From Ligustrum vulgare (Eukaryota; Streptophyta; Magnoliopsida; Lamiales; Oleaceae): a stretch of 64,000 bases of DNA. Numbering within the stretch: the stretch's first letter is position 1; every line of letters begins with the position of its first letter. A model generated the notes under the pieces. It did no database searches. It was not told the DNA's origin and saw only the letters and a list, made by a program, of their open reading frames with translations. The stretch lies in assembly GCA_963555705.1 (NCBI GenBank), contig OY743168.1, positions 96,698,925-96,762,924 of the forward strand, read 5' to 3'. Positions 3,025 through 60,823 of the stretch are shown piece by piece. A program made the translations under genes and the position numbers.

Positions 3025-3405
3025 TGGTGCGGATTGCGGAAGCTATTGTAAAATTCTTGTAATAAGAATTATATAAAAATAAAGAACATTATTGAAAAAA
3101 TCTTGCATTGTATATTGGTTAATGAAGGGATTATCAAAAAAGTGTACAATACATTTGTATCTATATAGGCAAATTTATTTTCTAATCCTACTAATATAAG
3201 GAAACAAACTAAAATCCTAATCTAAAATAAAGAAGATATCATATTCTAATCAATAAAGAAAAGAACTCCTATTCTAAAATCTAAAAGAATAGAATGAGAT
3301 AAAATATATTACAACTAAAATAGATTAAAGCAAATAGACTTAGAATAGGAAACTAATATTTACAAAACAAAAAACTGATCCAATAAAACTTGATTTTGTA
3401 CCACA
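3025..3405 (-). mobile_element. Long terminal repeat (5' LTR of a truncated minus-strand retroelement)
   Basis: On the minus strand the repeat begins TGTGGTAC at 3405 and ends GCACCA at 3025 (381 bp, canonical TG...CA), followed by the primer-binding site at 3010-3021. No partner LTR was found in the window, so the element is either truncated or its other LTR lies left of position 1. It sits beyond exon 7 of the VIH gene, in the same orientation, where the next intron would be. Confidence 0.7.
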
Positions 3406-3759: not shown

Positions 3760-6700
3760 CTTCCGGAACAGTTCCTTCATTCCCCCACCAGCTGAACTGG
3801 GGTAATATATCATTATACTGTGATCATCACCTTCATAGGACGAAAAAATGAGATTTGGCATGCATTTGCACAATATAGTACACAGTAATTGTAAGCCTAT
3901 TAAATAGACACGCTGCCACTAGAGTCAACAACTTTAGGTCGAGAGGAACTTGGGCACTGAAATGAGATGCTTAAGAGATGTTGGTTCAATAGGATTCTTT
4001 AAACTAAAACATTCAAAATTGTGAACAAATAAAATAAATTATACGTGAAGTGGTTTAGAAGGCCAGATCAATTTATATTGGTCCATACATTATAACCAGA
4101 ATCGGAAACGCAGAGAATCAATCTACAGTATTCAGAATGTAGGTTACCATGAATAGGCTTCTCCACAAAAGGCTTCCAGAACCGATTCCCATGGACCTCA
4201 ACATAATCTTCCTCCTCAAGGAAATAATCTAGGTCTTGATAAGGAAATTCCCTGTTAACGAGGGCGTAACTTGGAACAGGAATTCCATACATTTCAAGCC
4301 GCTGAAAGTATAACCAAATAAGAACCACAAAAATAAAAATAAAAAATAAATAGAAAAGTATGGATGCATACCTATCACAATAGGTCAGAGGAAAATACAG
4401 AAACTAATATCATGAACCCTTTGTAATCCACACTTCAATTTTACTGATATATAAATGTTGTTAATCAGGGGTAAGAAGAAAGAATTAATGTCCAGGTTGT
4501 ATATATAAAAAGTGGGTTCCAAGAAACTAAAAGGAGAAATGCACGAAGGAGGAGAGAGCAGGAAAATTGAAAGAAAACAGAAAAATGCTGCTCTTTGGCC
4601 TTTCACTGAATCGAGTACGCCTAAAAGTAAGGTAGGCACTTTCACTTCACTTTTTTAGTTTGACATTCTCTTTCACGTTTTCTTTCAAGTACAGCCTTAG
4701 ATAAATTCCTTCTTGTGTTGGATAAAATTGACTAGAGACAGTTGATACTAAAATACCGTGTGCATATTAGTCCTTCAGACCTTTAGGCTCCATTCGGCGG
4801 CGCCCATTTAAATTAGAATTTAAATATCACAATTTCCCAAACAACTTTTTAACCACACACATTTTCTCTCCAATTTTTAACCAAAAAATTTAACTAGAAA
4901 ACCCAAATAAATCATTTTAAGTTGGATTAATGAGCCACCGAACGGAGGCTTAAAAAATTTTAATAGGGGGTTGGGTAGAGAGAATGTCTCATAATTAGAT
5001 CAGAAGAATCCAAATGAAATTCTCTACGAGACCAAATAATTATGCTCAATGAGACAAATTCCAGAAGATTGGTTGTAGAAGCACAGCAACCCCATATGGT
5101 GCCAATAATAATATAGGGTTCACGCATCAAAAAAGGGTAGGAATAAGAAACTGCTAATAAAATCGTTGAATACTTGCACAGTAGCACCATATAATCTTCT
5201 CTATTTATTAATTCATTCAAAAGTCTCCTCACATCTAATCTAAAAAGTAAAGTATATAGAGTGCATCAAAGTGTAGGCATATCTCTGATCTCCAAAGAAA
5301 ACCAAATGCAAACCTCATAGACTTCTCTTCGATCATGAAGAAGGTGTTGTGACTCCAATTCATTTACAAGGAAAGGCCTAGAACAAAGAAATGAATAGAC
5401 CATCATAAGTGATAACTTCTTTCTTAAAGGACTGAGAAAGTAAATGGATATACTCTATATTATCTGTTTACGAAATAATACTGAAAATAATAACATCAGA
5501 TTCCACTCAACAACTGCATAAATATCAACAAGGACATCAGATTTTTTATCATTTCAGTCGGAATAAATGAACAGTAAGGAATCCATCAACAGGGGACGGA
5601 GTACAAAATCTAGAAAATGATTAAATCCAACTACAATTCCAAGTTTTTGTATTAACGTTGATTTGAATCGTGGTTTTCATTCTTAAACGGAGAACGGCAT
5701 ATAATCATTTTTTATTTTTCCAAATCTATTGATGCCCCCACAGCCTAAACATTTGTTATGCCGCCATAAACAATTTCCTCTAAATTTATTCATTATGGTG
5801 AAGAGCCACAAATATTTTCACACATAAAATTCTTTAGTCTAGCAAATGTACCTACACTACCAATATAACATGACACTGGTAATTTTAATTTGCAGCATTA
5901 AGATGTGCAAAAATTTCAACTGATTAAGTACAATATAAAATAGGAATCAGAGTTCAACCATGCCCTCGATATTAATTTGTTGCACTTGAAAAGAAAAGAA
6001 AAAAGGATCAAAATTTCCAACTCTAGATTATACCATAAACTCCTGTGTAATCAGACTCTAGGCTCTAGCAGTATTAGAATATAGGAATAGATCTGCAATG
6101 GCACAAAACTTGAGAAACGTCTAGATGTGATACATACTTCCTTAATTGAGCATATGCTACCGCCTTCATTAAAGGATATCCACTAGAGTAGAAGCCAATC
6201 AAGCATTCACAAATTGGCCAGCTGCAATATTACACCACATGGAATGAAAAACATTGCAGTATTTATGATACATTAATAGCTCTTAAAAACCAATGAAACA
6301 CTAGAAATATCAAATATATTCGAATTGTGATATTTACCTCTCTATGGGTTCCTCGAGAATAACCTTGTCCCCAAAATGAATAATCTACGCATTATAGAAC
6401 AGATAATTATCAGATTAATTTGAAGAGGCATGCAAATAATATATTCATTTTACAATGGGTGAACTAATTAATCTACTTGAAACCATTTATTCACTTCCCC
6501 TCAGAAGATATTCATGCTAAAGCTCAAAAACAGTACCTCGAACTCTCCAAACGCCTGCAGTCTGTCTAAAATCTGCAACATCGGCGCTGAGAAAACCTAA
6601 AACAATTGAAACCACAAAAATAAAAAATAAAAGAAAACAAATGAATGAGATTCAGAACTGAATAACACTGTGTTACACAACACAACACTACACAAACTGT

Positions 6701-9245: not shown

Positions 9246-9716
9246 CTAAACCCAGTTCAAATTAATTTTGATTTTAAGGTTTAGAAAATAGTAAATTAGA
9301 ATTTTTAAAAACAAAGGATATTAAGGACATTTTATAACTTACCAATATAAAATAGGTCGTTTGGATATGAAAAGTAAAAATAGGCCTTAAAAAACATGCA
9401 CGTTTAAAAATAGGTCTTTACACAAAATTTCCCGTAAGATTATTATTGTTTGGTAACTTGTTTATAAAAAAACATATTTTTTTCAAATCACTTTTTAATA
9501 TACATATTTTTTTCAAATCACTTTTTACGCTCTGTTCAGCTCATAGTTGTCATTTTTTTGTTTATTTGTGTTTTTTAGGTAAATGTGAGTGATTAAAAAA
9601 TAGTTTGAGAAATTGTGTATTTTTTTGGTTGTATATGATCTCGAAAATATAACATTCTTTATTATAAAAAAAAAAAAATTTACCAAACAGAAATAATTAC
9701 TTTTGATTTTTATTTA

Positions 9717-11732: not shown

Positions 11733-13137
11733 TGATAAGCGCTTAATAGCACTTATTTAATCCACATATTGTCGTATTTTGATCTTGATTTAATTCTATT
11801 TAAATATTGTTTAATGTATTTTTATGTACCGTGTTGTGTAGGATCATAAAGAACGAAAAGAAAGAAAAAAATGACTAAAAAGGGCTTAAAAACAAAAATT
11901 GGAGGACCACGAATTCAAACAAGTTACCGCCGTAGGTTCCAGACTTACGGTCAAATCTCCATCTGGCTCAAGTATAAAATCTGCAGAACTTCACTTACGG
12001 CCGTAAGGTATAGAGTTATGGTTGTAACTTTCAAGATCTCAAAATATCCAGAAAACAATTTACAGCCGTAATTATGTCAGTTAAGGTTGTCACTTTTCTA
12101 CAGAAAACTTTCCTAACTGGTTTAGGAATCTATCTTTGGTAAATTTTCTTGGGATCTCTAGGGCACGATTTTGGATGTATAAAAAGAGGAAAATTACTAC
12201 AGAAAGGAGGCTGAAAAATTAGAATTTTGAAGAGAATTCTTGGGAGATCTTCAAAGAAGTAAGCACCAACAAGAAAAGGTAAATCATGAATCAACTTGAA
12301 AAGTTCACCATGACCATGTTGGGCCAGAAATCCTTGTCTTGTTCAAGGGGTAGTTGTGTTAAATCAGTTATTGTTGTTTACTTTTCTTACAAAATTATAA
12401 CGTTTGATCTATCCCTTTCCTTTCAATTGTTGAATTATTACGTTTTAAACTTAAAGAGTTCATTTGATTAATATATTTGATTTGGCCAAATGAATGTTTA
12501 GTCTCTAAACTCATGTATATGCTATGTTTAAATCTTTTGATCTGTAATTATCATTAGATCTCGACTCATAATAGCAAATAAATCTCGCGCATATTTAGTA
12601 ATAATTCGACTTGGATTAATTGATTCGAGCTTGTGAAATTGATAGTTCAATTCAATCTATTTCTTCTCACTTTTCATACTGGCCTTGTGTTAAATCATAA
12701 GAGCTTATTTAAGATTACTCATTGGCTAGAATTGAATCAAAGAACTCATTGACTAGAATTGAATCAAAGAGCTTGTTTTGAATTAATTTGCATACGAAAA
12801 AATTGAGATAATCAGAGTTTGTTGGTTATCTAAGGTTGATAAATTGAATAAGGGATAGAAATGCGTTGCATGGAAATGTATAACAATAATTAAGGGAACA
12901 ACAGAACCGGAGAACAAGATCTTCTCTCACATTAGTTCTTTAAACACATTCACTTGTTATTTTTATGTATAGTTCTCATTTAAGTAATTCCAAATAACAA
13001 AACCCCCAGTTCTATTATAATTCATCGAGCAACTAATTAAGTTCATTGTTCCTCGTGAGTTAAACTCTTGCTCCCGCTTACATATTTAACTGATATTTGG
13101 TGAATAAGGAATAAATGGTGCATCGCGACACGTATCA
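11733..13137 (+). mobile_element. Solo LTR, gypsy-type, with paired palindrome array
   Basis: Begins TGATAAGCGC and ends CGTATCA, with 5 bp inverted termini TGATA/TATCA, and is flanked by TTTTG (11728-11732) and CTTTG (13138-13142), a near-match target duplication. No internal region adjoins it. Positions 11924-12092 hold three pairs of 12 bp palindrome-derived sites (best copy TTACGGCCGTAA at 11995-12006); members of each pair start 21 bp apart. A TATA-like TATAAAAAGAGG lies near 12178. Confidence 0.7.
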
Positions 13138-13802
13138 CTTTGAAAACGTTGAGAATATATATTAATTAAATTGATTTGATATATGTTTAGAATGTTTTAA
13201 TTAATCTAATTAATGGACAATGATGTTATGCTGGTAGGTTATAACTTGTATGCATATTTTGAATTTTGGAATTTTGCCAAATCTCTCCACTATGCTCAAG
13301 TCATATGGATATCTAATTGTCATTATCCATAAGTAGTAGTAATTTAGCTATGTTTGATCTAAATTTTTATTCAAATCAAAGTCAACAATTACTTATAATC
13401 ATATGTTTCACGGGTCCACAACTTTTTAATTTTTAATCACACATCACATTAATTTTTATCAAAATCAGTTAAAAATCGATTTTAATCTTCTTCAAATAAG
13501 AGTTTAGTGTATAATGAATGATTAACTCTTCGCATTTTATGAAACCATTATAAAGTTTCAATGATCCTTTCCGTTATATATTTTAGCCCATGATTGAGTC
13601 TCACTTTTTAATAACTTTTGTAGAAGGTATTTTTTTTTAAAAAAAAAACATATAATTAAAAATGAAGAAAGAGTTCACGTACAAAATTAATTTATTAAAT
13701 CATCCATATTTTCTCTCATCACTTTTCAACAACATATTTTACCTAGAAAATATAAAAAATTATGTTTTTAAACAATTTTTTAACAAACAGAGTCATAATT
13801 AC
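13138..13802. other. AT-rich intergenic, MITE-like text
   Basis: No gene. The segment 13620-13795 has the CACACATTTT/TAACAAACAG wording of the window's Harbinger-type MITEs, but I could not define both ends. Confidence 0.35.
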
Positions 13803-14247: not shown

Positions 14248-17200
14248 TAGATGTGGTAAACGGGTCGAGCCGCTCGTCGGTTCGGCTCGTCAAATGAACG
14301 AGCTCGCGGACGAGCCAAACAACGTCATTACTCAGCTCGTGGTTCAACGAGCGGCTTGTTGGCACGAGCCACGAGCTCAACAAGCCGAGCGGCTTACCGG
14401 CTCGTTGAATAAAAAAAAAATTTAAACGTTGTTCACGTTTTCAAAACAAAAAGAAGTAAAAAAAAAAAACAAAACAAAACAATAAACACCGAAACACCCT
14501 AAAGAAAAAAAAAATATACAATGTGACCGTTCTGGTCTCTTTTGTGATCGTTCTTCTGGTCACTAATATAAATCTTTTTTTCCTTAATTTTATCCTATAA
14601 ATATTACACTAACACAACTTTTTTTCTACAATTCTACTATACTACAACTCTCTACTCTAATTCTTATTCTACAGTACACTCTTCTCTTCATCTACTCTAC
14701 CAACATTTTTACTCTATTTTCTACAATTCTACATTACAAATATACTACAAGTTTGATATTTCAATTTAAATATCTCTTAGTTATATATTTGATATTTCAA
14801 TTTCAATAACTCAATTTATCATTACATCTCTCAATTACACATATTTCATTTTATATTTCAATTTTTCCACACCACATCACATACAAAAGAATGGATCCCA
14901 GCAGCCGAAAATTTATTAATGAATTGTTCGATGGTCCACCTGGATTTGGGGGCATCATGATGACTCAACACCACAATCTCACAATCATTTCGACAATCAA
15001 TTTTCCGGTCTCAACGACATACCAATTTCGCAACGAGAAATTTTTTTGAAAGAGAAGCTAAATTCAAAGCTGTGTGCAAATATTGTGTACAACAATTGGT
15101 ATGGGTAAAGGGGATTGGTACTACACACCTCAACCATCACTATCGTAAGTGTCAGCCCAACCGAATCAAAGTCAACTACAATTTGGTTCATCGATCGCTA
15201 GTGGTTCTGGAGCGGGATTTACAACACTTTTAAATTGGATGTATTCCGAAGCAGATAATCGAATTGGGATGGTTCAATTCGTTGAGGGGCGGAGTTGCCA
15301 TTAAGCATAGTGGACAACGAACACTTTGTTACATACATCAAGTGTTATCTTCAACCCAAGTATCAAGGTATTACTCGAAACACTTTACGTTCTGATACAA
15401 TACAATATTATCTTAAAACTAAGAAACAATTAATAGTCGGTTTAAATAACTATGGTGGTGCTATTTCTTTTACTTCCGATCTTTGGGAATGTATTAACAA
15501 AAAATGTTATATTGCTACAACTGCACACTACATTGATCCACTTTGGGTTATGCAAAAAAAAATTATTGCTTTCAAAATTCTAGAATTTCCTCATAACGCA
15601 ACCAACATATTTAATGTTATACTTGATATTGTTAGAGAATATGAATTTGAAAATAAAATTCGATCATTTATTTTCGATAATGCTAGTGTAAATAAGCCTG
15701 TAGTAGATAAATTATGTAGAATTCTTAATTCAGATTTTGGTGATTTCTTATTCCATGTTAGATGTGTATGTCATATTTTAAATTTAATTGTTCAAGATGG
15801 TTTGAAACATATTAAAGATGAAATAGATAAATTTAGAGATGCTATATTGTACATAACCATATCACCGAGTATAAAACAATATTTTGAAACAATGTGTTCA
15901 CAATACAATTTAGATTCTAAGAAATTTATCACCGACGTAGGCCATAGGTGGAACTCCACATACTTATTACTTAAATCATAAAAAGGTTATGAATACATAA
16001 TAATGGAATATTATAACAGTAGAACACTTAAAAAAGACGATGATCCTCTATGAATAGAATCGGATTGGAAAGCTGCTTTTAAAGTGAAAAATTTTTAACA
16101 AGTTTTTATGATTCAATCAACATATTATCTGGGGTATATTACCCAACTAGTTCAAGAGTTCTTGAACGTCTTTATATTATTGTAAGAACTTTTTATAGAT
16201 ATAGATATAACTTATTTTTTACTGAAATGATAATTGCTATGGAAATAAAATTTAGAAAATATTGAGAAGATTTACATATGTTATTTCCCTTAACATGCAT
16301 AATGGACCCGCGTTTCAATTTAAAGGGTACGAAATTTCTTGTTTCAAAAATCAATAGATCATTGATTTTGGATAAACCAATCACTTATAATAATTTAGAG
16401 AGCACGTTAGTAAACATGTATACTGTATATGCTTCACGATTAGGAACTACTGTTAGTCATACACAATTTGCACCATCACGTGATACTACACTTGGAGACG
16501 ATAAAGTAGAATTATACAATTTAATGGAAGAAATGAGTCAAGTACAAGGAACTTCTTCTTACAGTATGTCTTCTAGTTCTAGTATCAACGAATCAGGTTC
16601 ACTTCAAATACCTGAAGAATTGAAAATTTATTTTGTACAAGAACTTCTTATAAATGTGGAGTCTACTAATTCTTTAGAACTTGATTTACTTCATTATTTG
16701 CTAACAAACGAACGAAAATATCCGATTGTTTCCGCTATTGCGAAAGATCTACTAACACCTCCGGTTAGCACGGTATCTTTGGAGTCTGCTTTTAGTGCAA
16801 GTAAAAGGGTTTTGTCAGAAGTCAGGAGTCGACTCAAAGAATATATTTTGGAAGCGTTGATGTGTGTTAAAGATTGGCAAGACGGTGATTTACGCATACA
16901 ACATAAGTATGCCGAAATTGCATGAAGTCAGGTAAATGATATTTAACTTTACATTTTCAATTTCTTTATTATACATATAAAATAAAATATAATTTTGATT
17001 TCAAAACAAAAATTGTACACGTAACAAATTGTTCGTGTACAATTTTAACTCCGCCTACTAGAATATTCAATTAAGACTATTTAGTAGCTAGTCCCAAGCC
17101 CGGAAAAAAGGAGGAGGGTTTAATTTTACTTTTTAACCTTTTAAATTTTAATTTATTTACTTCATTTTAGTTTTTGTCTTTTCAAATTATAATTGGATAT

Positions 17201-17739: not shown

Positions 17740-18080
17740 TCAGGTAGTCACCCCGACACAGGGTTACCTCGGCATAGCATCACCCCTGGCATAGGATTAC
17801 CTTGGCACATCATCACCCCGACATAGTATCACCCTAGCATAGGGTTACCTCGGCACAAAATCACCCCGGCATTGGGTTACCTTGGCACAATATCACCCCA
17901 GGCATAGGGTTACCTCGGCACAACATCACCCCGACATAGGGGTCACTTCGGCATAGGGTTATCTCGACATAGAATCACCCCGACATAGGGTTACCTAGGC
18001 ATAGTATCACCTCAACATAGGGTTACCTCGGCACAATATCACCCCGGCATAGTATCACCCCTGGCATAGGGTCACCGGCA
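17740..18080. repeat. Minisatellite of alternating 16 bp modules inside an LTR
   Basis: About twenty contiguous modules near GGCATAGGGTTACCTC and GGCACAATATCACCCC alternate with few interruptions. The sister LTR at 23871-24606 has only about eight modules of the same two kinds on the opposite strand (24005-24135), so the array has expanded here. Confidence 0.8.
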
Positions 18081-18217
18081 CATAAAAAGTCTAGCAAGTT
18101 TGGCATCTACAGTCCGGCTTGTGAGTTCTGATTAGGTGACTGGATATTTTGTGGATCCCCTGGTAGGCCCATATGGATGACATGTCACGTCCAATTAGGC
18201 ATGACCGTAACAATTAC

Positions 18218-23749: not shown

Positions 23750-24660
23750 GCCTTTGTTCGGCGGCCAATTAATTTGGAGAGAGAAGATTTATTTTGGTTT
23801 TCGAGGTAAAATGTGTTTTTAAAAATTAGAGAGAAAATATGTTATTAAAAAGTTATTTGAAAAATTGTGTTGTTACAACCATGACTAATTGGACATGACA
23901 CGTCATCTATATGGGCCCAACAGGGGAGCCATAAAACATCCAGTCACCTAATCATGACCTATAGGCAAAAACTGTAGATACCAAATTTGCTGGATTCTTA
24001 TATGTCGAGGTGACCCTATGTCGGGGTGATGCTGTGCCGAGGTAACCTATGCCGGGGTGATGCTGTGCCGAGGTAACCTATGCCGGGGTGATGTTGTGCC
24101 GAGGTACCCTTATACTGAGGTACTCTTAAGTCGAGGGGTGTACCCTGAAAAGGTGATAAGACAGCTTGATGTGATAACATCTGTAAAGGGATTTGATGGT
24201 TGCTTTAACCCTATGACATGTAGTAATGATTATAACAAAAGAAATGGTTTACCTCATGAAGGGTGATGATCTTACCATATGTAAAGCATAATACATGTCA
24301 CAATCTAAGATAATTACTCCTTCTATAAATAGATCACACTTGCCTCCCGTGAAAAGGTTGGTAATCCAATACTTTAACTCAATATTTTACTCTCTTTCCC
24401 GTTTCTCTCTTTTACACACTTATATTTCTTACACATAATTTATATTTGCTTGAAATGAGTACTAACTTAGGCGTCGGAGTGCAAACGGGAGCCACCTCGG
24501 CCCCCTTTGCAAGCTGATTGTTTGTCCTAGTGCGCAAGAGATCCACGTGTTCAAGGAGGAGTTGAGACGTGTTGGTCCAAGGTCCAGCCGAATTTTGTGG
24601 TCAACATGTGTAATTTAAATTTTGGTTTAAACCACCCATTTAATGGGTCACCGAATAGTC
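23750..24660. mobile_element. Harbinger-type MITE containing a solo LTR
   Basis: Left end GCCTTTGTTCGGCGGCC and right end GGGTCACCGAATAGTC (complement GACTATTCGGTGACCC) are inverted. Flanks are TAA (23747-23749) and TAT. The MITE is split by the LTR at 23871-24606. Confidence 0.6.
23871..24606 (+). mobile_element. Solo LTR
   Basis: Begins TGTTACAACC, ends GGTCAACA (inverted TGTT.../...AACA), and is flanked by a perfect 5 bp duplication TGTGT (23866-23870, 24607-24611). Sister of the interrupted copy at 13803-18212. It carries about eight 16 bp modules (CCGAGGTAACCTATG / CCGGGGTGATGCTGTG type) at 24005-24135 and a TATA-like TCTATAAATAGATC near 24324, the probable LTR promoter. Confidence 0.9.
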
Positions 24661-40244: not shown

Positions 40245-41578
40245 ATGGAACGATATTCTCACGATAAATTTTGCGTTGTAGGCTTAATGGACCTCGAACA
40301 CGAGGAAGAAGCGTCGTTCGAAATTGCAAGGCTACATGAGGAGGACGCCTCGTGTATAGAATTTTGTGCGCTTCATTGTCATATCGCGCAATACGATTTC
40401 CACCGCAATGATCAAAACCGGCAAATAAATGACCGTATCTCCTATGGGAAATACCTAGTCGAACGTGTCTTGAACCAGAACAGTGGGGATGATTGCTTGC
40501 AGTTGACAAGAATGCGCCCGCCGGGATTTAGGAATTTGGTTTGGTGTCTACAAAATCACTATGGGTTGGAGGATTCTAGACACATTGATTCTGAAGAAAG
40601 ACTTGCTTTGTCATTATTCATCCTAGGTCATTCGGCTACGATGAGGGTTGCTCACTTACTGTTTTGCCACTCAACATCAACAATTCATGCGCACTTTCAC
40701 TATGTATTAGAAATACTAGAGAGGTTATCTGCTGACATGATAAAGCCGCATCCACAATACTTGCAAGGGCATGGTGATCATGTTCCAACCAATCAACGAC
40801 ATTTTGCGTTTCAGGTGAATAACTATGTTTTAAGAAAAAGCTTCCCCCAAAATTTCCACAGTCATGATATCGTTTAACACCCATCTACACTTGCATGGTG
40901 AATATTTGTGTGTACTAGAATTGCATTGGTGCCATTGATGGTACGCACATACCAGCGGTCCCACTTAAAGGAGAGAGTGAGCGATTTCGAAATCGTCACG
41001 GCGAACTAACGCAGAACGTTCTGGCTGTTGTGGACTTCAATATGTGCTTCACCTTTGCAGCTGCTGGATGGGAAGGTTCTACCCATGACAGCAGAATGTT
41101 GAATGCAGCAATGGAAAATCCAAGTAGCAACTTCCCTGCCCCGGCATTTGGTAAATACTATCTCGTGGATTCTGGATTTGCGAACAGACCAGGATTCCTG
41201 GCTCCCTACAAGGGACAGAATACGAGGTACCATATGCAAGAATTTCAAAGAGCCACATCATCCAGAGCTCGACAACCTAGAAATTCACAGGAACGATTCA
41301 ACTACCTACACTCCTCATGTAGGAATATTGTGGAGCGGTCGTTTGGTGTGTTGAAGAAACGTTTTCTAATACTACAGAGGATGCCTGAGTACAAATTCAG
41401 ATCCCAACAATCAATAGTCCTAGTTACAATGGCAGTGCACAACTATCTTCAAAAAGTTGACACTCTTGACCCAGGCTTTGTTGCGGCTATGAGGGCTGAA
41501 TACACCCCAATGGAACCTAACATTTCACCTGATGAAGACGATGCAAATGGAGGACGTACGGCTAGGCACGAGCGTTGA
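40245..41578 (+). CDS. PIF/Harbinger transposase (DDE_Tnp_4), catalytic triad intact
   Basis: Two exons, 40245-40814 and 40919-41578, with a 104 bp GT-AG intron, give an uninterrupted 409-residue protein, a normal size for the family. The N-terminal half (GFRNLVWCLQNHYGLEDSRH, LALSLFILGHSA) is the helix-turn-helix region. Exon 2 opens NCIGAIDGTHIPAVPLKG with the first catalytic Asp (residue 197). GWEGSTHDSR follows, then YYLVDSGFANRPGFLAPYKG (Asp 274) and NIVERSFGVLKKRF (Glu 329), completing DDE. It would cut and paste elements with TWA target sites and GGCTNNGTT-type ends, the kind of MITE scattered through this window. An upstream start is possible. ORF1, its usual partner, is broken. Confidence 0.9.
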
Positions 41579-43211: not shown

Positions 43212-44032
43212 TGATGTGATCCGGGATAGGAGATGTGATCCGGGATAGGAGCTCAAAGGAGAAGTCAAGTCACGGACGACGCAACAACATTCGACATAGG
43301 AAAATGAACAATTTTCATGTTGGAAGCTAGTCGAGACGACGAGTGGATCAACCTCATTCAAGCCGACGAAGAAAATTGTGAAATTTCAAGAATTACGGCC
43401 GTAACATATGGGAGCTCACGGCCGTAACCAACCCACTGTTGAAAAGTATGATTTTGAAGAAAATTGGACTTACAGCCGTAACGCAGATTTGTCACGACCG
43501 TAACGCAGCCTCGGATCAAAAACAAGAATTTCAGAATTAAGACTTACGGCCGTAAATAAAGTCTCACGGCCATAATGGTGAAACAGAAAGAGTCTTACGG
43601 CCGTAAGAGGAATTGTCACGGCCGTAAATAACAATACGCGTGAATTTAGGGTTTTAAATTATTTCCTTATTTTTGGTTATTTCTTTCCTAGTTTAATTAG
43701 AACTCTTAACCTAGATTTTGACTCTATTTATAGGGATGTAATTTTCATTATTCATAGACAACTTTGATAATATTAATTGAGAGGCTATTTGTTTTCACAA
43801 CCTTTATTCTTTATTGAATAAAATCCGAACTTGCGAGTTAATCTTGTTTGTTCAAATCTCGGTGAGAATTATTATTGTTTGTGATCGAGAGGTCAATATA
43901 TCCCAGTGATTGTATTGGTTGCTTGGTTCAATTAATTTTAATTGGATCCATAAATCGAGGTTCTTGGCTTTCTTGGGTCGATTCCAATAATTTGTGGGTT
44001 GCGTAGCTACAATTGCTACGTGGTTTGCATCA
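43212..44032 (+). repeat. 5' LTR of the 43212 gypsy element
   Basis: TGATGTGATCC...GGTTTGCATCA (5 bp inverted termini TGATG/CATCA), 821 bp. It is 19 bp longer than the 3' LTR because ATGTGATCCGGGATAGGAG is duplicated at the start. Eight palindrome sites at 43393, 43416, 43470, 43492, 43544, 43564, 43595 and 43616; three of them carry one G-to-A change. Confidence 0.92.
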
Positions 44033-44034
44033 TC

Positions 44035-44046
44035 TGGTATCAGAGC
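44035..44046 (+). other. Primer-binding site (initiator Met-tRNA)
   Basis: TGGTATCAGAGC two bases after the 5' LTR. Confidence 0.9.
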
Positions 44047-44660
44047 TTAGGCTCCAAAAATCAAGGTTATATCTTTATTTTGTTTTCTTGGTTTTTTCTA
44101 TCCAGTTTGATTTTTATGTTTATCATCGAGTCCCATAAAAATCATCCATATCTTGTTGTTGAGTCTTTCTTTTCTTGATTTTTGTGTTCTCCGCGCCAGT
44201 AAATGTTTTCTTTGTTTGATCCATATAAAAATCCAACAAAATTCAAAAGTGTTTGTCTTGCTTAATTCTTATCCGAATTAAGTTCCGTTTGTTTTGTCGT
44301 GTTCGTTGTCGAATTTTCGGATTTATAAAAATAATAATAATAATAATATTTTTTTTATTATTTTATTTATTCCGAAAATTCAAAAATAAAAAAATAAAAA
44401 AATATTTCCATTCAAGAACCACTTTCTTGAATTTCCTTAAATTTTTGATAAATCCTTGACTTCCAAGTCAAATTAAAATTCTTGATATTCTTTCCTTTCT
44501 AGTCAAAATTCAAGAATCACTTTCTTGAGATTTCTTTAATTCTTGACATTCTCTAAATTTCTTTCTTCCGTTTATTTTTCAAGCAAGAAAATAAATTCCT
44601 TCTTACTAATTGGTGTCTAGATCATCTATTCTTAAATTTTCTTTAATTACCACATAAGAG

Positions 44661-45794
44661 ATGGATTATGATCCGGATTCGTTGTTCCAAACTAGATGTT
44701 ATGTGGGACAGAAGGTATGCAGTTTGACAATTGATAGATAGTGCTTCACTAATTTTGCTAATATCACCATGGTTGAAAGATTGGGATTATCTCTAATACC
44801 GCACAATAGACCTTATTGTGTGACATGGATGAGGGAATTTGGAGAATTCCATGTAACCAAGCAAGTTCTAGTGACTATCACCCGTGGAAAATATATTGAT
44901 GACGTATTTTGTGATGTAGTGCCTTTAAGGTCTTGTCATATTTTATTGGGAAAATCATGGAGTCGTATGAGGGAAGCAATTTATTATAAAAGTATGCACA
45001 TATACAGGATTCTTACGAGAGGGAAAACATTCACATTGTATGGATTGACACTCGAGGAAGCACTAGACGATTCGAGGAAGGTAAAAAAAGAGAGTGAGAG
45101 GAAAGTTGTAGTGAGATTGCAAGAGGAACCTCGAGATAGGGATGTTGAGAAGGAGGGAAAGCTGAAACTAGAAACGGTTGATCAAATTCCAAAATTTGAA
45201 GTAGAAGATGAAGAATTGGGTAGTAAGGAGGTGAATGAACAAGGAAATAAAATTGTGGAAGAGGTGATTGAGGATGAATGTGTGGTTGAAAATAAAAATG
45301 TGGAAAAGGTAGTTGAGACTAAAAATGTAGAGGAAGTTGAAACTAAAAATTTAGAAGAGATAGTTGAGCTTGAAAATGTGGAGTTAGAAGAGGTGGATGA
45401 GTATGAGAGAAAAGAAATAGAAGAGATTGAGCAAGAAGTTACAACAAAAGAAGGAAGTGAAGAGAAGGACCTCGTTGTTAGGGAAGAGGATTTGGAGATG
45501 ATATACCATGAGTACAAGGATCCATATCTTGTACTTTGTGAAACTAACATTTCCCACCCTATTTTGCTTAAATCTTTCTTGCAGGTTGAATATACTTGGA
45601 GGTTTGAGTCACACCACATTTGGCCAAGGAAGTTCTTATTTCGACTCGTCCTTCCAATCCAAGTATTTGACTATTGGTTGATACTATGTAATGGAGGCAA
45701 AAATTTTCCTTTTGATCTAGGCGGTGCGCTGAAACACCATGAAACAAGCTATGATTCGGGACGAATCATCTTGAAGAAGGGGAGAATGATGTGA
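44661..45794 (+). CDS. Gypsy remnant: protease-derived domain plus acidic region, no polymerase
   Basis: From ATG 44661 the sequence reads MDYDPDSLFQTRCYVGQKV then SLTID-R-stop, where the family has the protease active site (D-S/T/G-G). The stop is near 44737. The frame reopens and from 44769 gives 341 residues: MVERLGLSLIPHNRPYC, VTKQVLVTITRGKY, DVVPLRSCHILLGKSW (the retropepsin-like fold of gypsy pol), then about 170 residues dominated by Glu, Lys and Val with repeats like NVEKVVETKNVEEVETKNLE. It ends in LGGALKHHETSYDSGR, the usual C-terminus of gypsy integrase polyproteins. Reverse transcriptase, RNase H and integrase core are deleted. The stop codon lies within the first bases of the 3' LTR. 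No enzymatic activity is expected. Confidence 0.7.
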
Positions 45795-46588
45795 TCCGGG
45801 ATAGGAGCTCAAAGGAGAAGTCAAGTCACGGACAACGCAACAACATTCGACATAGGAAAATGAACAATTTCCATGTTGGAAGCTAGTCGAGACGACGAGT
45901 GGATCAACCTCATTCAAGCCGACGAAGAAAATTGTGAAATTTCAAAAATTACGGCCGTAACATATGGGAGCTCACGGCCGTAACCAACCCACTGTTGAAA
46001 ACTATGATTTTGAAGAAAATTGGACTTACGGCCGTAACGCAGATTTGTCACGGCCGTAACGCAGCCTCGGATCAAAAACAAGAATTTCAGAATTAAGACT
46101 TACGGCCGTAAATAAAGTCTCACGGCCGTAATGGTGAAACAGAAAGAGTCTTACGGCCGTAAGAGGAATTGTCACGGCCGTAAATAACAATACGCGTGAA
46201 TTTAGGGTTTTTAATTATTTCCTTATTTTTGGTTATTTCTTTCCTAGTTTAATTAGAACTCTTAACCTAGATTTTGACCATATTTATAGGGATGTAATTT
46301 TCATTATTCATAGACAACTTTGATAATATTAATTGAGAGACTATTTGTTTTCACAACCTTTATTCTTTATTGAATAAAATCCGAATTTGCGAATTAATCT
46401 TGTTTGTTCAAATCTCGGTGAGAATTATTATTGTTCGTAATCGAGAGGTCAATATATCCCAGTGATTGTATTGGTTGCTTGGTTCAATTAATTTTAATTG
46501 GATCCATAAATCGAGGTTCTTGGCGTTTTTGGGTCGATTCCAATAATTTGTGGGTTGCGTAGCTACAATTGCTACGTGGTTTGCATCA
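45787..46588 (+). repeat. 3' LTR of the 43212 gypsy element
   Basis: 802 bp, TGATGTGATCC...GTTTGCATCA. All eight palindrome sites are perfect: TTACGGCCGTAA at 45949, 46026, 46100, 46151 and TCACGGCCGTAA at 45972, 46048, 46120, 46172. Roughly 15-20 base differences from the 5' LTR by eye, suggesting a moderately recent insertion. Confidence 0.92.
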
Positions 46589-46616
46589 TCAACGCAACCT
46601 CGGATCAAAAACAAGA

Positions 46617-47248
46617 ATTAAACTTGCAAATTCGAATTTTATTCAATGAAGAATAAGGATTGTGAAAGCAAATAGCCTCTCAATTAATATTATCAAAGTT
46701 GTCTATGAATAATGAAAATTACATCCCTATAAATATGGTCAAAATCTAGGTTAAGAGTTCTAATTAAACTAGGAAAGAAATAACCAAAAATAAGGAAATA
46801 ATTAAAAACCCTAAATTCACGCGTATTGTTATTTACGGCCGTGACAATTCCTCTGACGGCCGTAAGACTCTTTCTGTTTCACCATTACAGCCGTGAGACT
46901 TTATTTACGGCCGTAAGTCTTAATTCTGAAATTCTTGTTTTTGATCCGAGGCTGCGTTACGGCCGTGACAAATCTGCGTTACGGCCGTAAGTCCAATTTT
47001 CTTCAAAATCATACTTTTCAACAGTGGGTTGGTTACGGCCGTGAGCTCCCATATGTTACGGCCGTAATTCTTGAAATTTCACAATTTTCTTCGTCGGCTT
47101 GAATGAGGTTGATCCACTCGTCGTCTCGACTAGCTTCCAACATGGAAATTGTTTATTTTCATATGTCGAATGTTGTTGCGTCGTCCGTGACTTGACTTCT
47201 CCTTTGAGCTTCTATCCCGGATCACATCTCCTATCCCGGATCACATTA
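46617..47248 (-). repeat. Partial LTR in inverse orientation
   Basis: Reverse complement of the LTR, lacking about the last 190 bp. Its outer end carries the same 19 bp duplication as the 5' LTR, so it derives from that LTR version and not from the neighbouring 3' LTR. Palindrome sites at 46833-47067. Followed by GGGCGGGCGGGCGGG. Confidence 0.88.
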
Positions 47249-47940: not shown

Positions 47941-48599
47941 TGATGTGATCCGAAGTAGGAGACCAAAGGAGAAGTTGAGCTATCGGCAATGCGACAGTGA
48001 TCTATGTGAGAAACAGCACAAGGTTCATGTTGGAGTCGAGCCGAGACTAGACGACGGACGGAGCAAGCCGAGTCGAAGGGTCGAAGTTCGAGTTCCAGAG
48101 GCAAATTCACGACCGTAAGTCCCGGACGTCACGGTCGTAACTAGCCTACAGGTTTGAACAAAGAATTCCACGATATTCATACTTACAGTCGTAAGTTCCA
48201 TGGATACGGCTGTAAATAGCAATCAGAATGCCACTTACGGCCGTAAGTTAGTAAATTACAGCCGTAACTTTTTTTCCGAATTTTCGCAAATTTAGACTTA
48301 GTTCCCTTTTTGTTTTATTATTTTTATGTTTTAGGGCCCATTAGCGGCTAAACCTAGTTTTAGGTCAATTTTACTTTATATTATCAGTTTTTCCCATTGT
48401 AAACATTAACTTTGATATTATTCAATGAAATTGAGAGTATTCTCTTTGAAAGATTGAGGATTCCCTTTTGTATTCTTCAAGAACAACCAATTGAACTTAT
48501 CAAATATTGTGAGATATTTGTGAATTCCCATCAGAAACTTATCAAAGAAATTGACAAATCCTTGTGGTGCTTCGAAAACTTAGGATCTTCAATCCGCAT
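47941..48599 (+). mobile_element. LTR of a further gypsy-type element
   Basis: Begins TGATGTGATCCGAAG like the other LTRs and carries six palindrome-type sites at 48107, 48129, 48183, 48204, 48235 and 48256 (pair spacings 22, 21, 21). The probable end is AATCCGCATC near 48599. The following 400 bp (TGTTGCTGAGTCTAGATC...) resembles the leader after the 43212 LTR (TTGTTGTTGAGTCTTTC). No primer-binding site or partner LTR found; the right end is tentative. Confidence 0.6.
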
Positions 48600-59988: not shown

Positions 59989-60823
59989 TGATGTGATCCA
60001 GACCACGAATACAAGTCCGCACAAAGAGACGTTGACGATCAAAGGAGGACCGATGACTCGATTGTAAACGAAGAGGGCCAATGAAGCAATGGACAAGCTA
60101 GTACAAGAAACAATGGTCAAAACAATGTTCGTGTCATCAAAAGAAACAAGTTCCATGTTGGGACCGAGTCAAAACGGCGAGTGGATCAACCTCATTCAAG
60201 CCGTCGAAGAAAATTTGGAAATTTCAAGTTACGGCCGTAACATATATTTCTTACGGCCATAACGAGTTCACTGCTGAAATTGATATTGCGAGAAATAAGG
60301 GATTATGGCCTTAAGTGCTGAGGGTCACGGCCGTAAAGGAGTCACTGCTCAAAAACTGAGTTTTGGAAATTTTGGACTTACGGTCGTAAGTGTGAATCAA
60401 TAATCAAGTTATGGCCATAAAGGAAGTAGTCACGGCCGTAAATGTCAATACGTGTAATTTTAGGATTTTTATTTCTTTCCTAATATAATTAAAACTCTTA
60501 AGCCAGGTTTTGACCCTATTTATAGGGAAGTAATTTTTATTATTATTCAGACAACTTTGATATTATTATTGTGAGGCTATATTACTTTCAACAACCTTAT
60601 TCTTCATTGAATAAAATTCGAACTTGCGAGTTATTCTTGTTTGTTCAAACTTGGGTGAGATTTATTTTTATTGTGATCAAGAGGTTAACATATCAATCGA
60701 TTGTGTTGGTTGCTTGGTTCAATTAATTTGAATCAATCTCTAAATCGTGGTTCTTTGACGTTCTTGAGTCGATTCTAATATTTTGTGGGTTGCGTAACTA
60801 TAATTGCTACGTGGTTTGCATCA
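59989..60823 (+). mobile_element. Solo LTR, gypsy-type, with CGGCCG palindrome array
   Basis: TGATGTGATCC...GGTTTGCATCA, 835 bp, with perfect target duplication TAAAG (59984-59988, 60824-60828). Palindrome-type sites at 60229, 60251, 60303, 60325, 60378, 60409 and 60430. No internal region. Confidence 0.92.

Follow-up and report, generated by a model that had tools for sequence, protein, structure and literature searches.

Why would a plant retrotransposon carry, in each of its long terminal repeats (LTRs), an ordered row of copies of one 12-bp palindrome? The question is raised by an element at positions 43234-46588 of the window, the 64,000-nucleotide stretch of Ligustrum vulgare DNA that was analysed here. 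Activators have been identified for few of the elements that are most abundant in plant genomes, and one 12-bp word that recurs in over 36,000 phased pairs and in unrelated lineages offers a direct handle on a presumed binding protein and on helical cooperation.

The element is a Ty3/gypsy LTR retrotransposon, identified by its TG..CA LTR ends, primer binding site, purine tract and gypsy protease. Its two LTRs, each of 799 bp and on the forward strand, occupy 43234-44032 (5' LTR, TGTGAT...TTGCATCA) and 45790-46588 (3' LTR), and a 19-bp tandem duplication of the first bases of the 5' LTR (43213-43251) lies just ahead of that 5' LTR. The primer binding site TGGTATCAGAGC (44035-44046, forward strand) is presumably of the initiator-Met type, and a purine-rich tract, read from the sequence at 45773-45789 (forward strand), abuts the start of the 3' LTR. 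The internal region of about 1.76 kb lacks a reverse transcriptase, which marks the element as a non-autonomous deletion derivative. Its longest open reading frame (44769-45794, forward strand, 341 amino acids) gave no match to Pfam domains; residues 1-113 share 40% identity (6e-28) with the protease of an autonomous relative, L061 (C1, 63-69 kb). This relative has gag, protease, reverse transcriptase, RNase H and integrase domains in the gypsy-type order gag-PR-RT-RH-INT, and its LTRs belong to the LTR family of the window (86% over 351 bp). Judging by the type of its gag and primer binding site, the gypsy lineage of the element may belong to the chromovirus clade. The 5' and 3' LTRs differ by 17 substitutions (K 0.0217), which would correspond to some 0.8 million years if 1.3e-8 substitutions per site and year are assumed.

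A first-pass annotation of this locus had assigned eight palindromic sites, in four pairs, to each LTR. All 16 are located there, three of those in the 5' LTR being one G/A change off. The 5' LTR array (43393-43627, forward strand) has sites starting at 43393, 43416, 43470, 43492, 43544, 43564, 43595 and 43616, and the 3' LTR array (45949-46183, forward strand) at 45949, 45972, 46026, 46048, 46100, 46120, 46151 and 46172. Exact copies of TTACGGCCGTAA or TCACGGCCGTAA make up all eight sites of the 3' LTR, which form four TT..TC pairs, and five of the eight sites of the 5' LTR. The remaining three carry single changes (43470, TTACAGCCGTAA; 43492, TCACGACCGTAA; 43564, TCACGGCCATAA); at all three places, a G of the 3' LTR corresponds to an A in the 5' LTR. 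Consecutive starts lie 23, 54, 22, 52, 20, 31 and 21 bp apart, and the spacings reported earlier within pairs (23, 22, 20 and 21 bp in both LTRs) are confirmed. Downstream of the 5' LTR array, at a distance of about 97 bp, a TATA-like box, TATTTATAGGG, is read from the sequence at 43725-43735 (forward strand); the eight-site array of the 3' LTR likewise ends about 97 bp upstream of TATTTATA.

The sites are not confined to this element. With up to two mismatches, the window contains 41 matches, against a mean of 1.00 and a maximum of 5 in 100 shuffles; chance or low complexity as the origin of the arrays is ruled out by these shuffles together with reversed-pattern controls of zero. Beyond the two LTRs of the element, arrays are found in an inverted partial LTR of its own family (46609-47228, reverse strand, 97% identity; array 46833-47067), in the LTR start of a second family (47944-48420, forward strand; array 48107-48267, distances 22, 54, 21, 31 and 21), in a diverged LTR of the element's gypsy lineage (59992-60823, forward strand, 75% to the 3' LTR; array 60229-60441) and, decayed, at 11924-12071 (forward strand) within DNA akin to the Athila-like group II LTRs described below. 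The only rows that Tandem Repeats Finder reports are two-copy 20-bp ones, at 43535, 46091 and 46885. From 5,747 candidates, the family of the element has at least 43 matches, and the array is recognisable at the same places in 29 other family copies, with some sites decayed or missed in a two-mismatch search. The few two-copy rows and the same spacings in other close copies exclude a recent tandem duplication in the window copy, as had been argued at the outset from the differing linkers.

Genome-wide, 36,543 distinct exact pairs with starts 19-23 bp apart occur in the 1.385-Gb host genome, 25,661 in the TT..TC form and 10,882 in the TT..TT form. The pattern TTACGGCCGTAA-N7-11-TYACGGCCGTAA yields 23,562 forward and 23,863 reverse matches, and its reversed control none. 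TT..TC alone accounts for 12,680 and 12,981 strand-hits, and because TT..TT is symmetric, the same difference of 10,882 is left on either strand. By start spacing, strand-hits number 47,425 for 19-23 bp, 430 for 24-29 bp (gaps of 12-17; 223 + 207) and 2,367 for 30-33 bp (gaps of 18-21; 1,167 + 1,200), with controls of 0 in each range; per bp of spacing, these amount to 9,485, 72 and 592. All gaps of 0-30 together give 25,625 + 26,277 strand-hits, so that 1,680 are left for starts at 12-18 and 34-42 bp combined, where overlapping ranges sharing one start may count once. Among the matches listed for gaps of 0-30, one place has starts 40 bp apart, and all others have distances of 19-23 or 30-31 bp. 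The spacing of nearly two helical turns, proposed earlier for a single element, is real and genome-wide.

Two further observations belong to these searches. The 430 strand-hits at 24-29 bp come, among the matches listed, from a limited set of recurring linkers. An origin in phages, plasmids or prokaryotes was set aside, since the window LTR has no match among plasmid sequences, the exact pair is absent from a viral contig collection, and in a genome contig collection it occurs on one contig, from a Spirochaetales MAG (L087).

The carriers of the arrays were compared at 36 loci drawn from the matches listed for gaps of 0-30 and 18-21, 20 of them in the initial 1.5 Mb of contig 1 without near neighbours and 16 chosen for differing linkers. 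With the palindromes masked, single linkage at E 1e-4 resolves them into three groups, a similarity-search grouping that is blind to very old homology: group I (24 loci) with the LTRs of the window, group II (nine) with Athila-like LTRs and group III (three) with internal arrays. At this threshold and with this masking, no similarity is detected among the three groups; some of the matches that hold group I together are weak, at 39-45 bits. Elements of group II contain Retrotrans_gag and protease domains and the primer site TGGCGCCGTTGCC; their gag/protease type and a primer binding site of the TGGCGCC... kind would mark them as Athila-like. The gags of groups I and II share 23% identity over 91 amino acids, and two group II gags 91%. 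Three Athila-like stretches, L082 (array 3064-3225), L079/L084 and L081/L085, have internal arrays behind gag-pro, and no long open reading frame is seen behind that of L082. The LTRs of two distantly related gypsy lineages share the palindrome, which one of the two also carries internally, and their linkers, LTRs and primer sites are unrelated; this combination suggests a single factor common to both. A further-reaching proposal, that the two long-parted lineages gained the same phased arrays independently because one trans-acting protein, host-encoded or supplied by some element as a public good, decides which retrotransposons of this plant are transcribed or stay unmethylated, is tentative; from the sequences compared it could be true but is on balance doubtful.

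The distances between sites follow the helical repeat of DNA. In one representative array per group (three chosen, 19 distances), 19 of 19 distances are within 2.0 bp of multiples of 10.5, and their resultant of 0.79 is reached by none of 200,000 random sets; the array of the window alone gives a phasing p of 0.0065. For 18 chosen arrays, the best period is 10.6 when every site-to-site distance of 120 bp or less is used and 10.9, not 10.5, for adjacent distances alone. In group I (27 arrays, including A, B and D), adjacent sites lie 20-23, 29-31, 42-45 or 51-55 bp apart, except for three distances of 75 and a single one of 37; in group II (nine arrays), they lie 19-22, 24, 43-45 or 51 bp apart, except for one distance of 64. 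These values are non-independent because spacings are inherited among the families of a group. Linker lengths differ by 1-3 bp, almost never by half a turn.

The form of the sites and their place in the LTR are equally regular. Across 106 non-ascertained sites from 25 oriented arrays (73 ascertained sites left out; up to three mismatches allowed, which favours constancy), palindrome positions 1, 3, 10 and 12 are constant at 98-100%, and position 2 is T in 62 and C in 43. Each site has two CG, plus CHG cytosines at its centre, and the six C/G positions account for 56 changes, of which 46 are C-to-T or G-to-A, the central GC being hit most. Read in LTR sense, 62 of 120 pairs (98 from group I, 22 from group II) run T-then-C and two run C-then-T. 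The array ends 84 bp upstream of CTATAAA in all six oriented LTRs of group II (three of nine were not oriented), and in the 25 of 27 oriented arrays of group I the distance from array end to TATA is 95-97 bp in 11, 122-135 bp in 11 and 74, 88 and 107 bp once each; as LTR orientation was taken from a TATA-like word on either strand, this result on place is partly circular. A test at 70-140 bp finds no TATA-like word for 15 of 40 arrays, and none near the internal group III array; a looser test, with internal arrays left out, leaves 5 of 36 without one. Locus L065 is ambiguous, having TATA-like words at both sides.

Conservation of the sites depends on the distance at which copies are compared. 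Thirty copies of the window family (A) have, at non-CpG columns, mean pairwise differences of 0.0305 for sites, 0.0303 for linkers and 0.0562 for the LTR remainder, and at CpG columns of 0.0363, 0.0755 and 0.0489, respectively. The corresponding values in 30 copies of the second family (B) are 0.129, 0.116 and 0.107 (non-CpG) and 0.265, 0.225 and 0.300 (CpG). These close copies (two families, 30 copies each) show no excess of site conservation over linkers; single insertions therefore decay regardless of their sites, with no sign of selection per copy. Between families, sites agree at 4,722 of 5,650 non-CpG and 2,112 of 2,518 CpG positions (84% in both cases), linkers at 9,609 of 15,082 (64%) and 303 of 518 (58%), and 60-bp flanks at 13,434 of 19,085 and 1,262 of 1,844, counts whose direction is readable but not their exact figures, because the rows are non-independent and the aligner can place any site on any other. 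They cover all ordered pairs inside five sets, and exclude gaps (704 site and 1,652 linker cells) and sites in pattern-selected pairs. In the most divergent comparison within group I, sites, CpG included, agree at 82-84% and linkers at 44-50%. Sites outlast linkers between families, not among close copies, so selection would seem to have acted on the source elements. The outcome that the first-pass annotation had set against its own reading, palindromes kept no better than linkers, is thus what close copies display, whereas families compared with each other display the opposite.

The sites themselves, their number, phasing, place ahead of the TATA-like box, sharing by lineages and conservation between families can be read directly from the DNA, and from these features we infer binding by a protein, activation and the kind of factor concerned. 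Whole turns, avoidance of half turns, symmetry, a place before the promoter and retention despite linker drift argue for an array that a dimeric protein would read from one face. The arrays are probably promoter-proximal enhancers in U3, with such a candidate protein bound along one side of the helix. Each 12-bp palindrome would be bound by a single symmetric protein, probably as a homodimer, and sites 20-23 bp apart would place two dimers on a common helix face. Pairs would be stacked at further whole turns (about 31, 43-45 and 52-54 bp), and the stacked complex would have a single orientation, facing the core promoter that lies about 74-135 bp downstream. Several results weigh against this reading: the absence of extra site conservation in close copies, the best period of 10.9 for adjacent distances, the 430 strand-hits at 24-29 bp, the arrays lacking a TATA-like word and the two-sided case of L065. 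As one protein would serve two lineages and an internal array, a host factor or a shared trans-acting protein is likelier than a family-encoded one. LOB-domain (LBD) proteins prefer CGG/CCG and are hence guessed candidates; no link between them and this palindrome was found in the literature surveyed. Nor was a known factor for this palindrome found: the literal palindrome and three 10-mers match papers that, by title and start of abstract, deal with primers and cloning. If the factor also acts on genes, the LTRs would be ready-made enhancers scattered through the genome. The earlier statement that the standard LTR layout explains nothing of the arrays was too strong, as an upstream enhancer array in U3 would explain them, and the palindromic arrays of copia Sireviruses, as far as the accessible text describes them, offer a precedent (PMC2829016).

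Other functions can be imagined for dense motif arrays. An unlikely one is anti-silencing, in which the sites would be landing pads for a trans-acting, VANC-like protein that removes or blocks DNA methylation, with a promoter role only secondary. According to the available portion of the report, the VANC targets of VANDAL DNA transposons are non-palindromic, family-specific arrays of tandem repeats with an element-encoded binder (Hosaka et al., 2017, PMC5735166). Like them, the arrays described here consist of one short motif, densely repeated in non-coding parts of mobile elements, both in LTRs and inside the elements, and the two CG and central CHG per site, together with the predominance of C-to-T and G-to-A changes (46/56), fit methylated copies. 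Unlike them, the motif is palindromic, is shared by several families and, judging by Tandem Repeats Finder and by the unrelated linkers, has not spread by the tandem repetition through which VANC arrays expand. The near-constant distance of the arrays to the TATA-like box also speaks against anti-silencing. Within the sampled parts of L061, the four frames searched hold standard domains only.

Action at the level of RNA, through hairpins of the pairs, intermolecular pairing in dimerisation or packaging, or the feeding of small RNAs, is improbable to a marked degree, although the first-pass annotation had raised hairpins or RNA pairing as options and the four pairs of the 3' LTR do fold, at -14.4 to -17.5 kcal/mol. 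Palindromic clusters in the cis-region of maize Sirevirus LTRs are cited, in the part of the source available, as attracting small RNAs (PMC10760457); both systems have palindrome clusters in an LTR, but the maize case concerns CACCGGACNNNGTCCGGTG, copia elements and small-RNA data. The TT..TC form weakens four of four hairpins relative to TT..TT, yet it numbers 25,661 against 114 genome-wide for the form that restores the base pair, a scarcity that is no independent test because the TT..TC polarity is inherited. RNA pairing, moreover, needs neither a 10.5-bp, whole-turn phasing nor a depletion at 24-29 bp, and the RNA reading is disfavoured here. Similarly remote is neutral ancestry, by which the arrays would descend from one old array, or have been copied between LTRs by recombination, without function. 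Inherited spacings within groups and close copies without site-specific conservation agree with it, and similarity-based groups cannot reveal very old homology. Set against this are the survival of the sites, CpG included, beyond their linkers between families (82-84% vs 44-50%, subject to the aligner caveat) and the variation of linkers by 1-3 bp with half-turn shifts almost absent. Phased enhancers remain the preferred reading.

Repeated boxes that bind a host factor are known from the ONSEN (ATCOPIA78) LTR, where, in the text available, HSF binds repeated heat response elements and drives transcription (PMC3907296). Host-factor binding is known for ONSEN and only proposed here, and ONSEN differs in having few HSF boxes and an LTR without CG sites, as opposed to two CG per site. 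For the present palindrome, a literature search thin on subscription journals found no report from a retrotransposon. The closest known system, on the accessible part of its description, is the set of RM boxes of copia Sireviruses, palindromes with a CGG-CCG core that number eight or more in each element and sit in the upstream LTR half, shortly before TATA, with divergent linkers and, in many elements, extra internal copies upstream of env (Bousios et al., 2010, PMC2829016). In the same text, the RM motif varies per element and is described as specific to Sireviruses and missing from classic copia elements, and its authors found no common binding factor. TTACGGCCGTAA resembles these boxes in its palindromic CGG-CCG core and in its eight sites per LTR upstream of a TATA-like box. 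In contrast to them, the carriers are Ty3/gypsy elements of two lineages rather than Ty1/copia, one identical palindrome is used by all carriers, and spacing follows strict whole turns, a helical phasing that the accessible text of PMC2829016 does not describe. New are the gypsy hosts, the one palindrome common to unrelated lineages and the strict helical phasing, which extend the repeat-motif observation made on Sireviruses beyond copia elements to gypsy ones and suggest a common factor that reads CGG-CCG in plants.

Across the genome, the palindrome pairs are polar: read in the sense of the LTR, position 2 is T in the first site and C in the second, and the form in which both inner positions are C is rare, with 114 pairs. 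This polarity may reflect either ancestry or a rule of a putative bound complex.

In Athila-like elements, the second gypsy lineage with palindrome arrays, internal arrays are found in three fetched DNA stretches (L082, 3064-3225; L079, 360-476; L081, 312-410; each in its own coordinates), where gag-pro precedes them and a G run (GTGTGGGGGGG) follows. Their placement behind gag-pro is reminiscent of Sireviruses, Ty1/copia elements that carry motif copies upstream of env. Additional arrays with different linkers adjoin fetched copies in the flanks of L022 (174-337 and 3197-3381) and in L052 (301-615); two of these are nested near family members.

The exact pair pattern, that is, two exact palindrome sites at set spacing, was carried in the genome_contigs search solely by one Spirochaetales MAG contig (L087), with four strand-matches at two places (2079-2181).

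An inverted partial LTR of the gypsy element's own family (46589-47228) directly adjoins its 3' LTR in the window, and two LTRs are likewise arranged head-to-head at C6:46915780-46917414 of the host assembly. Elsewhere in the window, a tandem repeat (TCACCCCGGCATAGG...) at 17748-18086 is related to another at 24001-24110, which shows the complement of TCACCCCGGCATAGG... DNA transposon remnants (16278-16925; 41030-41578) contain a hAT dimerisation domain and a DDE_Tnp_4 domain, the latter presumably Harbinger-like.
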